DNA of 64,000 bases from assembly GCA_947038405.1 (NCBI GenBank), contig CAMQVY010000001.1, positions 62,001 to 126,000 on the forward strand. Direction: 5' to 3'. This document shows positions 23,177 through 28,553 of this stretch, piece by piece; position 1 is the stretch's first letter; each line of letters begins with the position of its first letter. The DNA is from an uncultured Rikenellaceae bacterium (GTDB lineage: Bacteria > Bacteroidota > Bacteroidia > Bacteroidales > Rikenellaceae). A program made the translations under genes and the position numbers. Under the pieces are notes generated by a model that was not told where the DNA came from, did no database searches, and saw only the letters and a list, made by a program, of their open reading frames with translations.

Positions 23177-25213
23177 TTATTCTAAATCAAACCCCATAGG
23201 TTTTATATTTAGAATCTCTAAATACATATCATCTTTTGCAGTAACAGCATTAGCTTCAATACGGCTAATTCCATCCTTAAATAGTATGTCATTCCACCTA
23301 AACACACCATTATCACCACTCTTCATCCCCATTGATATCCCATTTACAAATAGTTCAACCTCTCGACAATTCGAATAAATTTTAATATCCTGATTAGGGT
23401 CATTTCGTTGATTCCATCGACTTTCAGTTATATAAACAAATGGATCTTTCTTATTCCAATTCGCCTTATATAGATAGTAGGCATCTTTTTTATATCGTCT
23501 ATCAAAAGTAACCAAACCTAAGTCATTAATTCCATTAGCCTCACCCCAACTTCTTCCTGTAGCCCCATAGTCAAACATATTACCTACAAACGTACCAAAT
23601 AACATTGGATTATTCTGTGTATTTTTATAGTATGACTCATGGAAGTGTGTCTGCCAACGTTCAGGATGCCAACTAGACATATACTGAGGTCGAGAGAGTG
23701 AATCCTCTTGATGGTGTATTGACCCTCCAGCACCATAACTTATTCCTGAACGTAAGTCACTCCACTTCTCACGTAACTGGTCTAACCACACGAGAATATC
23801 ATCTGGCCATCCCTCTTTCCATCCTAAGCTATGATTCCAAACAACTACATCAGTAATAAAGTTTATCTCGCCATCTTCGCTACTCGTAGCAGCGGTATAG
23901 CGGCTTGGATCCTCCGCCTTAACAAGACTATTCAACTCCTTAATATAATTGATAGGATCATCACCTCTCAACCCTAAATCAGAAAATATTCCCCAAAATA
24001 TAATACTAGGGTGGTTGAATAATTGCTTAACAATCTCTTTTGTTTGACTTATTCCATTATTTTTAAATGACGGAGTATCTAAGAATGCCTTGTCTGTCAA
24101 GAATGCCGCCCCTACTAGAGGAAGATCACTCCAAACAATCACTCCAAAACGGTCACAAAGTTTATAAAAATCAGTATGGTGCGGGACATTAGCAACCCTT
24201 ACAGCCGTAGCACCCATCTCTCTAATAAGCATAAAATCCTCCATAACCTGATAAGTAGATAGTGCCGTACCCACCATCACTCTATCTTGATGGGCAACTA
24301 CTCCATTTAACTTATATGGAGAACCATTCAACATAAATCCTCTATTTGGATCAATAGAATAGTATCTAAATCCAGTTTTAAGTTCTATATCATCAACGAC
24401 AATATCATCTTTAAACAACTTGACATTAACACTATATAGATATGGATTAATTACTCCATTCCAAAGTATCGGATTCTGAATATTATAAGGTATCGATATA
24501 GTTTGAGATTTATTACTACCATCAATATACGCCCCATTACTCTGCACAAAAACCACGGTACTATCACTTTTAGTTATAGTCACCTCAGCAGTCACATTAC
24601 ACTCTACCTTACTATTAACCTCAATATCAACAACTCCATCTACACTATTAGTTGAGACATTATTTTGCACAATATAGACCCCATCAGTAGAGAAATCAGT
24701 CAATGAAATCACCGTTGGGTCAGTCACAATCAACTCAACATTTCGAGATATTCCTCCATACGAATTTTGATCCCCAGCCGTAGGAAGTATATCCATCTGC
24801 GGGGAGTTATTTACAATAACCCAAAATATATTAACCTCACCGTATTTCAAAAAATCGGTAATATCATATGTAAATTTTGTATATCCACCTCTATGTTCAC
24901 CAACATGCTTTCCATTGATCAGTACGTTCGTTAGAGAGTTCGCCCCATGAAGTCTAATAAATACACGTTTATCTCTCCACTCCTCAGGTACCTTAATCGA
25001 TTTAAGATAGTTTCCAATACCTCTAAAGTAATCTCTTTTCCCACTTAGCGCATCACTATTCCACATATGAGGTAAATTAACCGTCAGTGCACCATCACTA
25101 GATACTGCACTATTGGAGAAAAACTTCCACCCTCTATTAATATTATGCACCTCTCTAGCCACTAAAGAACATGTGAACATAATAAACATAAATAATAATA
25201 AACCCCTCTTCAT
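23177..25213 (-). CDS. Exported GH2-fold protein, catalytic glutamates apparently missing
   Basis: A 678-aa glycoside hydrolase family 2 relative with a signal peptide (MKRGLLLFMFIMFTCSLVA). It has the N-terminal sugar-binding jelly roll (about 30-190), the immunoglobulin-like domain (about 190-290) and a TIM barrel (about 300-600) that keeps NGVVAHQDR, NHPSIIFWG and GTFVGNMFDYGA. In active GH2 enzymes NHPSxxxW is followed by NE (acid/base). Here it is followed by S411-D412. The nucleophile motif SEYG reads S492-YG with no glutamate. This suggests loss of normal beta-glycosidase chemistry or a non-catalytic binding role. No SusCD pair is adjacent. Confidence 0.8.
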   Translation of the reverse strand: MKRGLLLFMFIMFTCSLVAREVHNINRGWKFFSNSAVSSDGALTVNLPHMWNSDALSGKRDYFRGIGNYLKSIKVPEEWRDKRVFIRLHGANSLTNVLINGKHVGEHRGGYTKFTYDITDFLKYGEVNIFWVIVNNSPQMDILPTAGDQNSYGGISRNVELIVTDPTVISLTDFSTDGVYIVQNNVSTNSVDGVVDIEVNSKVECNVTAEVTITKSDSTVVFVQSNGAYIDGSNKSQTISIPYNIQNPILWNGVINPYLYSVNVKLFKDDIVVDDIELKTGFRYYSIDPNRGFMLNGSPYKLNGVVAHQDRVMVGTALSTYQVMEDFMLIREMGATAVRVANVPHHTDFYKLCDRFGVIVWSDLPLVGAAFLTDKAFLDTPSFKNNGISQTKEIVKQLFNHPSIIFWGIFSDLGLRGDDPINYIKELNSLVKAEDPSRYTAATSSEDGEINFITDVVVWNHSLGWKEGWPDDILVWLDQLREKWSDLRSGISYGAGGSIHHQEDSLSRPQYMSSWHPERWQTHFHESYYKNTQNNPMLFGTFVGNMFDYGATGRSWGEANGINDLGLVTFDRRYKKDAYYLYKANWNKKDPFVYITESRWNQRNDPNQDIKIYSNCREVELFVNGISMGMKSGDNGVFRWNDILFKDGISRIEANAVTAKDDMYLEILNIKPMGFDLE

Positions 25214-26399: not shown

Positions 26400-27689
26400 T
26401 TATATTTTAATAATCAAATAATAGTTCTTCTTTCCTTTTTGTACCAATAGATACTTTCCAGCAATAAGATCTGCCTCTGTAACCACTCTATCAACAGATG
26501 TTACTTTCTCTTTATTAATTGAGACCCCACCACCTTGAATCAACTTACGAGTCTCTCCTTTTGATGAGAACACAGATAGTTTATCTCCGCATAAGTCAAC
26601 AAAATTAATTCCTTGCGCAAGGTCAGCAGCATCAACATTAAATTGAGGTACACCATCAAACACTTGAAGAAGAGTCTCTTCATCAAGTCTATTTAGCGCC
26701 TCCGCTGTTGCTCCTCCAAATAGGATTGCAGTAGCCTCCACAACTTTATCATACTCTTTCTCTGTATGGATCATACATGTGATCTCCTTAGCAAGAGCTT
26801 TTTGCAACACTCTCAGATGTGGTGCAGCATCGTGCTCAGCAATAAGAGTGTGAATTGTATCTTTATCTAATAACGTAAATATCTTAATGTAGCTCTTAGC
26901 ATCTTCATCACTCACGTTCAACCAAAACTGGTAGAATTTATAAGCCGAAGTGTAACGAGAGTCAAGCCAAATATTTCCACTTTCAGTCTTACCAAACTTT
27001 GTTCCATCAGCCTTCTTGATAAGAGGGCAAGTTATACCGTAAGCCTCTTTACCCAACATACGACGAATCAACTCTGTTCCAGTGATAATATTTCCCCATT
27101 GGTCAGAACCTCCAAGTTGGATTTTACAATCTAACTCTTTGTATAAGTGCACGTAATCATAACCTTGAACAAGCTGATATGTAAACTCAGTAAAACTCAT
27201 ACCATCTCCATCTCCACTGAAACGCTTCTTAACAGAGTCTTTTGCCATCATATAGTTAACAGTAATCAACTTACCGATATCACGAATAAAGTCTAAGAAT
27301 GAAAACTCCTTCATCCAATCGTAATTATTAACCAGAACAGCTCTATTTTTAGCCTCAGAATCAAAGTCAATTAACTGGGTTAACTGCTTTCTGATCGCCT
27401 CTTGATTATGTCTAAGCGTTGGCTCATCAAGCAAGTTACGCTCTTGAGATTTACCTGACGGATCACCAATCATCCCCGTTGCTCCACCAATCAATACAAC
27501 TGGACGGTGTCCACTCATTTGAAAGTGTTTCAATATCATAACCCCAACCAAGTGACCAATATGTAGTGCATCAGCCGTTGGATCAAATCCCACGTATGCT
27601 GTTGTCATCTCTTTAGCCAATTGCTCTTTTACTCCCGGTGTCAAGTCATGAACCATGCCTCTCCACTCTAACTCCTCTATAAAATTCAT
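26400..27689 (-). CDS. tyrS: Tyrosyl-tRNA synthetase
   Basis: Charges tRNA-Tyr. The 429-aa class I enzyme has the HIGH motif in [10 protein letters not shown] near residues 45-52 and a KMSKS equivalent KFGKTES near 225-231. A C-terminal S4-like RNA-binding domain (about 355-425) contains [13 protein letters not shown]. The frame is open eight codons further upstream, but the ATG at 27687-27689 gives the family N-terminus [15 protein letters not shown] and is chosen. uppP lies 81 nt upstream on the same strand. In many relatives truB follows uppP instead. Confidence 0.96.
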
Positions 27690-27770
27690 ATTTTTATTAT
27701 TTACTATTATCATACATATAAAAACTCCATCGAACGCCTATAAATATCCATTCGACAAACCACCAAGATA

Positions 27771-28553
27771 CTACAACAGATATATTGATATTGATGTTAC
27801 TCCAACAATTGCACAATATATTGCGAACCAGATTAACTTACCCTGCTTAACGATTCTAATCATAAACTTACAAGCTACTAATCCTGATATAAATGCAGCC
27901 ACAGAGCCTGCAATTAAATTTGAAACATTAACTGTACTTGTATTATCTGTACCTATTGCATCAAGGAAACTAACACCTAAAATAGGAACTAAAATCATTA
28001 AAAATGAGAACTTAGCCACTTCATCTTTATTAACCCCTAGAAGTAACCCAGTTGAGATTGTCGATCCAGATCGTGATAAACCAGGGAGAACAGCACAAGC
28101 TTGTGCAATACCTATTATAAATGCTCTTTGAGGAGTTATAGGTTTAATTCTCACTTTAGAGTAGTGTGTGAATGTAAGTAAGGATGCTGTAACCAATAAC
28201 ATCGAACCAACAAGAAGTAGGTTACTTGTAAATAGTGACTCAACCTCATCTCTAAAAAACAATCCAACGAAAGCAACCGGAATCATAGATACTATGATAT
28301 TAATTGCAAACATTGTTTCTTCATTAAATTTGAACTTAAAGACTCCTTGAAATATCTTTATGATCTCTTTCCAGAATACTACAATAGTACTCAATACCGT
28401 AGCTGCATGCACTGCAACTGTAAACTGCATATTGTTAGACTCTTCAATTCCGAAAAGATAACTTGCCAACTCCAAATGCCCGCTACTACTAACGGGTAAA
28501 AACTCTGTTAATCCTTGAATAATACCAAGGATAATTGATTCAAAAATAGTCAT
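27771..28553 (-). CDS. uppP: Undecaprenyl-diphosphatase (UppP/BacA)
   Basis: Inner-membrane enzyme that recycles undecaprenyl pyrophosphate to the monophosphate carrier used for peptidoglycan and other envelope glycans; overproduction gives bacitracin resistance in E. coli. The 260-aa polytopic protein carries both family signatures: [14 protein letters not shown] near residues 14-27 and [12 protein letters not shown] near 156-167. About seven or eight membrane segments are visible. It lies 5 nt downstream of the DUF3098 gene in the conserved Bacteroidota block ftsX-DUF3098-uppP. Confidence 0.96.

Follow-up and report, generated by a model that had tools for sequence, protein, structure and literature searches.

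The analyses presented here establish, for the gene at positions 23177–25213 of the window (the whole stretch of DNA analysed, 64,000 nt), loss of the catalytic residues with an intact predicted fold, and for its lineage of GH2 proteins the residue loss, purifying selection, wide retention and a genomic slot shared by most of the main clade. We consider it probable that the gene encodes a retained, non-catalytic exported pseudoglycosidase, and from sequence comparisons we infer that it has no activity and works through binding. The original prediction of a GH2-fold pseudoenzyme had concerned this single gene; it has held, and it now describes a whole lineage.

Results

The gene and its catalytic sites

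The features referred to below are as follows.

23177–25213, minus strand: ORF of 678 aa for the putative GH2-fold exported pseudoenzyme (open frame, ATG start; domain and fold searches)
25157–25213, minus strand: putative N-terminal export signal, residues 1–19, cleavage probably between A19 and R20 (by eye)
24722–25027, minus strand: GH2 N-terminal jelly-roll domain (Glyco_hydro_2_N), residues 63–164 (Pfam)
24365–24667, minus strand: GH2 immunoglobulin-like domain (Glyco_hydro_2), residues 183–283 (Pfam)
23462–24340, minus strand: GH2 TIM barrel (Glyco_hydro_2_C), residues 292–584 (Pfam; fold intact in the model)
23243–23389, minus strand: DUF4982 domain, residues 609–657 (Pfam)
23978–23983, minus strand: S411-D412 at the Asn-Glu acid/base site (alignments with structures and orthologues)
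23735–23740, minus strand: S492-Y493, one-residue deletion removing the nucleophile Glu (SEYGAG to S-YGAG; alignments)
23519–23521, minus strand: L565, where intact relatives have the Lys of N-x-K (NDK; alignments)

By sequence and by fold the protein is a member of GH2: its N-terminal, immunoglobulin-like and TIM-barrel domains score 81.2, 59.3 and 42.7 bits with Pfam, against cut-offs of 21, 28 and 23, and its model superposes on the GH2 fold. A hydrophobic N-terminal stretch, judged by eye, ends in LVA/REV, and the A/REV junction recurs in relatives; the protein is probably exported and periplasmic. The nearest NCBIfam model, beta-glucuronidase LacZ4 (NF050095), gives 782.8 bits, which is below its curated cut-off of 950 and places the protein outside that family, and the intact relatives L160, L182 and L041 reach 1195.2, 1215.3 and 1167.6 bits with the same model. 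Also absent is N-x-K, which we take to be the carboxylate-recognition motif of beta-glucuronidases: the window protein reads N563-D-L565.

Residue alignment sets NHPSIIFWG-IF-S411-D412 of the window protein against NHPSICFWG-LF-N-E of Bacteroides fragilis BfGUS (5z1a, 3cmg), and GIS492-Y493-GAG against GISEYGAG, with the flanks of the deletion intact. Ser-Asp at the Asn-Glu site, a clean one-residue loss before YGAG and a normal spacing between the two sites had all been predicted, and all were borne out, the first at codons 23978–23983, the second at the very codons originally named (23735–23740), and the third with 80 residues from 412 to 492. Since the acid/base site is S411-D412 and the nucleophile is deleted, both catalytic glutamates are absent, i.e. 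the protein has neither the acid/base Glu that a retaining GH2 enzyme carries after strand beta4 nor the nucleophile Glu at the end of beta7. The comparison with GH2 structures and an AlphaFold model, which the original prediction had proposed as a check, likewise returned an intact GH2 fold with both glutamates missing.

Fold and sugar pocket

The AlphaFold2 model (from 64 sequences, those of the window and the loci) has a mean pLDDT of 92.7 and a pTM of 0.92. It superposes on BfGUS (5z1a) with Z 53.0 and an rmsd of 1.2 Å over 648 residues (TM 0.94/0.97), and the two proteins share the four-domain architecture and the fold at 43% identity, whereas the window protein lacks the two catalytic Glu along with the Asn of Asn-Glu, the Lys of N-x-K and most pocket residues. 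Tannerella forsythia beta-glucuronidase mL1 (8dhe) has the same fold (42% identity, Z 48.9) and, unlike the window protein, retains N-E and SEYGAG in the alignment.

In 38 intact rows, 99 columns reach 95% conservation or more; their median retention is 0.94 in the 121 rows that carry the nucleophile deletion (the deletion clade), and 11 of the 99 fall below 0.10. The worst-kept columns, mostly pocket residues, are F149, H342, N411, Y462, E556, A443, Y466, E492, E363, Y343 and N460, with retention of 0.00 for F149, H342, N411 and Y462, 0.02 for Y466, 0.04 for E492, 0.06 for E363, 0.09 for Y343 and 0.10 for N460 (E412, 0.16). The sugar-holding residues of intact relatives are F149, H342, Y343, N460, Y462, Y466, W544 and K565; W544 is kept in 0 of the 121 deletion rows and K565, the Lys of N-x-K, in six. 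The listed residues are presumed to line the sugar pocket, partly by reference to E. coli GUS and LacZ. As judged from the alignments, the sugar pocket around both glutamates is dissolved and the scaffold is still conserved.

The original prediction had offered glycan binding or a different mechanism as what such a protein might do, and neither gained support. A lectin-like protein that, in the manner of chitinase-like proteins, still holds a glycan at or close to the old cleft, and so delivers or senses a glycan of the envelope or of the host, would accord with the retained GH2 N-terminal domains, with the persistence of D148, H308 and R554 in 53, 54 and 51 of the 121 deletion rows (about two fifths), and with the glycan-binding pseudoglycosidases described in part of PMC7828330. 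However, in the deletion clade the sugar-holding residues are missing or vary, which makes inherited lectin use of the pocket less likely than use of another surface, and the replacements (of F149, H342, Y462, W544 and K565, among others) vary among relatives, unlike a selected or a new shared ligand site. Moreover, we noticed no genes of the SusC/SusD type directly beside this one, and the inactive Segatella copri GH26B has itself only been speculated to bind, in the portion of PMC12704710 that concerns it. We therefore regard the lectin-like role as unlikely, though deserving of some weight.

That the protein is an enzyme with a different mechanism, using other acids or, in sister lineages, one Glu, we consider improbable. 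Glu before YG is kept or regained in 22 of 144 orthologues and Glu412 occurs without it in 19 of 144; furthermore, E363 has become Asp in 111 of the 121 deletion rows (92%), this being the sole pocket-adjacent conserved acid that differs from the enzymes. Against this, position 412 in the deletion clade is L, D, E, Q or others and position 492 is S, A, C, T or others, a variety which indicates that neither site is constrained, and across the 121 deletion rows no second acidic pair is conserved on the strands of the barrel. Acids that were gained, E160, D472 and E526, map to a jelly-roll strand and outer helices in the secondary structure of the model. The 17 sister rows that keep the nucleophile may have residual chemistry.

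Near-invariant positions have also been gained in the deletion clade, as counted in a first set of 81 deletion rows: C353 (100%) and W484 (99%), and further P242, Q608, Y528, E526, H345, D472 and E160. The secondary structure of the model assigns C353, D472, E526 and Y528 to the outer helices numbered 2, 6 and 7 (helices counted by hand), with W484 next to them and H345 immediately ahead of helix 2.

Orthologues within and outside the family

The Asn-Glu motif is gone from 141 of 144 full-length orthologues (144 genomes, 22 genera of the family of the source bacterium), and the one-residue nucleophile deletion is common to 121 of them; three (L036, L043 and L143) are intact. These counts come from the search for orthologues sharing the S-D/S-YG pattern that the original prediction had suggested, with alignment rows defined as a single open frame of more than 450 query residues and more than 250 bits, and identical sequences entered once. 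The 141 degenerate orthologues divide into 100 without either Glu, 22 with Glu before YG and 19 with Glu412 but no nucleophile. Within the deletion clade 19 of 121 rows keep Glu at 412 (without the Asn), and 17 non-deletion rows retain the nucleophile Glu. Five deletion-clade rows (L130, L139, L228, L234 and L236) have a Glu again before YG (I-EYGG) and no acid/base; this Glu is a substitution in the shortened loop. Outside the family, 40 of 40 homologues (from genomes of the order and named genomes) are intact, as are eight more rows of the family that represent other GH2 branches.

The source genome is a draft of 86 contigs, and a sequencing error at 23735–23740 had been named at the outset as a possible source of the pattern. 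Sequencing or assembly error at both sites is ruled out to the point of negligible probability, given that 121 of the 144 orthologues, each from its own genome, carry the same deletion, the 83%-identical congener L015 among them.

A homologue at E ≤ 1e-100 is present in 243 of 250 family genomes, and in each of the 110 with completeness of 90% or more and contamination of 5% or less, in counts made irrespective of catalytic state. Five of the 250 (G066, G074, G134, G207 and G242), all incomplete (59–83%), have no clear orthologue; G098, likewise examined, is among the seven non-matching genomes. Sequences were examined from about 147 of the 243 matching genomes (the 144 plus G026, G062 and G184). 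Four copies beyond the 144, namely L053, L146 and L245 (broken or partial) and L250 (a second G184 copy), were judged by motif and by eye; all have degenerate motifs and two are broken. L031 and L032, with one stop each, were counted in the 144 through their longest open stretch.

Stops interrupt L031 (G007), L032 (G006) and L053 (G062), and L146 (G026) is split in two frames. The four internal stops, in three loci, are all TAG and face W520, Q183, Q183 and W484 of the window protein; another GH2 of G026 likewise holds one TAG. From their sequences, the stops and the split are probably decay, and with broken copies in at least four relatives, some species can evidently lose the gene.

Intact LacZ4-type copies (L041, L084, L087 and L092, in G031, G063, G216 and G184) stand beside a degenerate one and branch with Odoribacter/Bacteroides sequences, so placed that a later gain of the enzyme seems likely. 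A role as regulatory partner of a close active paralogue was considered and rejected as not general, an intact LacZ4 and a degenerate copy occurring together in four genomes. The source genome itself has 14 GH2-like matches at E ≤ 0.001, including 23177–25213, on contigs C4, C7, C15, C16, C17, C29, C30, C33, C37 and C48 and in the window; the next best is 31–32% identical.

Repeated loss of the catalytic residues

With the catalytic columns excluded, FastTree placed 104 family sequences in one clade (support 99), within which an 81-row deletion clade is nested (support 100). In an IQ-TREE analysis of 45 rows, genus g8, in which Asn-Glu has become Asp-Gln and the nucleophile is mostly retained, falls together with the intact g14 sequences and is separated from every Ser-X sequence. 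An AU test against the joint grouping of the 31 degenerate rows (versus 14 intact) rejected it (p 0.0114), and with it a single origin of all degenerate copies; the tree tested omitted L143, whose position is unsure, and the g8 group was already visible in a preceding tree when the test was made. The rejection and the grouping of g8 with g14 together indicate two or more losses of the acid/base. As for the nucleophile, the main clade lost it through the deletion, g10 (L034, L035) through a change of Glu to Ala, and L131 through one of Glu to Gly. All these losses, of nucleophile and of acid/base, fall in one orthologous gene.

Selection and genomic place

Degenerate pairs have dN/dS values of 0.035–0.20 (Nei–Gojobori; 15 of 17 close pairs computable, two saturated) and intact pairs 0.03–0.12 (five of six computable, one saturated), with several dS values above 1 and hence rough. 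Purifying selection on the degenerate copies is clear, if perhaps a little relaxed compared with that on the enzymes. The protein bears two marks of a pseudoenzyme: it is homologous to an enzyme family whose fold it keeps and whose catalytic residues it has lost, and it has been retained under purifying selection after that loss. A decaying relic heading for loss could explain the stops or splits in some species and the five incomplete genomes without a clear orthologue, but it is disfavoured by these dN/dS values, by the homologue in every one of the 110 good genomes, and by a deletion that is shared, with the frame intact, by genera at about 40–58% identity; we consider it very improbable.

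CvpA, RsgA, WbqC or IspG (named by Pfam) occurs in the fetched flank of 116 of 121 deletion-clade rows and of 0 of 23 other clade rows, flank lengths being unequal from locus to locus. The usual arrangement is CinA-TrmH-RsgA-CvpA, GH2, WbqC-IspG-RecG, in which the GH2 gene is divergent from CvpA and convergent with WbqC; given these opposite directions, the GH2 gene stands alone, without an operon partner. The recurring neighbours are housekeeping rather than polysaccharide-utilisation genes. The window and its congener are two of the five exceptions to this slot, the gene lying there beside asnA and tyrS; in the source genome RsgA and WbqC are on other contigs than the GH2 gene. With these contigs and the housekeeping neighbours, a candidate operon partner was rejected.

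The group with Ser-Asn and GEYGAG (g5, g6, g7 and g20: L029, L030, L031, L032 and L037) has another shared neighbour, which by eye reads like an Era-type GTPase and places this group in a different stable location. Elsewhere in the window, a 158-aa ORF at 27655–28131 (plus strand) is antisense to an undecaprenyl-diphosphatase-like gene at 27771–28553 (minus strand) and is probably spurious.

Discussion

Pseudoglycosidases are a known kind of protein, and in the literature searched no comparable GH2 pseudoenzyme came up; a word search of the main text of a 2025 study of GH2 subfamilies likewise found no mention of inactivity or of missing catalytic glutamates (PMC12243196). Chitinase-like proteins (GH18), Klotho and CyRPA (in part of PMC7828330) and GH28 pseudoenzymes of beetles (in part of PMC6549527) are cases in which, as those portions describe them, a glycosidase fold outlived its catalytic activity and was put to a binding or supporting use; they belong to other GH families and to eukaryotes, and their likeness to the window protein is one of description. 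The closest bacterial precedent we found is Segatella copri GH26B, a conserved glycoside hydrolase without both catalytic Glu that was tested, found inactive and speculated to be a binding protein (PMC12704710, in the relevant portion). Both are Bacteroidales glycosidase-like proteins with a conserved loss of both catalytic residues, but GH26B belongs to GH26, is predicted to sit at the external side of the outer membrane, was studied together with a polysaccharide utilisation locus and concerns one species, whereas the window protein belongs to GH2, is family-wide and occupies a housekeeping slot.

Considering a non-catalytic pseudoglycosidase as the probable nature of the protein, the unconserved cleft favours a scaffold or receptor working through other surfaces, with a glycan-binding cleft second; within the pseudoenzyme reading we judge the chances of such a scaffold or receptor to be about evenly balanced. 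In this proposal, the ancestor would have been a LacZ4-type GH2 beta-glucuronidase of the family of the source bacterium. The acid/base Asn-Glu may have been lost first and the nucleophile then, by one-residue deletion in the main lineage; with catalysis gone, the pocket could drift, purifying selection still acting on the four-domain scaffold. The gene would have settled between cvpA/rsgA and wbqC/ispG and mostly been inherited there, the source genus having it elsewhere. As scaffold or receptor, its binding partner may be an envelope protein or polymer, and candidate surface residues are C353, W484, Y528, E526, D472 and H345, on or beside barrel helices 2, 6 and 7.

More tentatively, and at somewhat less than even likelihood, we suggest that throughout this family of Bacteroidales a GH2 beta-glucuronidase has become a housekeeping protein, near-universal and passed on vertically, that is exported and serves as scaffold or receptor, with repeated loss of catalysis and a function on the outside of the barrel. 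The GH2 protein would then be a bacterial counterpart of the Klotho type of reuse.

Annotation pipelines would name these genes beta-glucuronidase or beta-galactosidase, wrongly for nearly every copy examined in the family, and such calls would inflate glucuronidase counts in gut metagenomes. Finally, the family provides an uncommon natural series (intact, acid/base lost, both lost), with repeated loss in one orthologous bacterial gene, that is useful for asking why a glycosidase fold persists once the cutting of sugars has ended.
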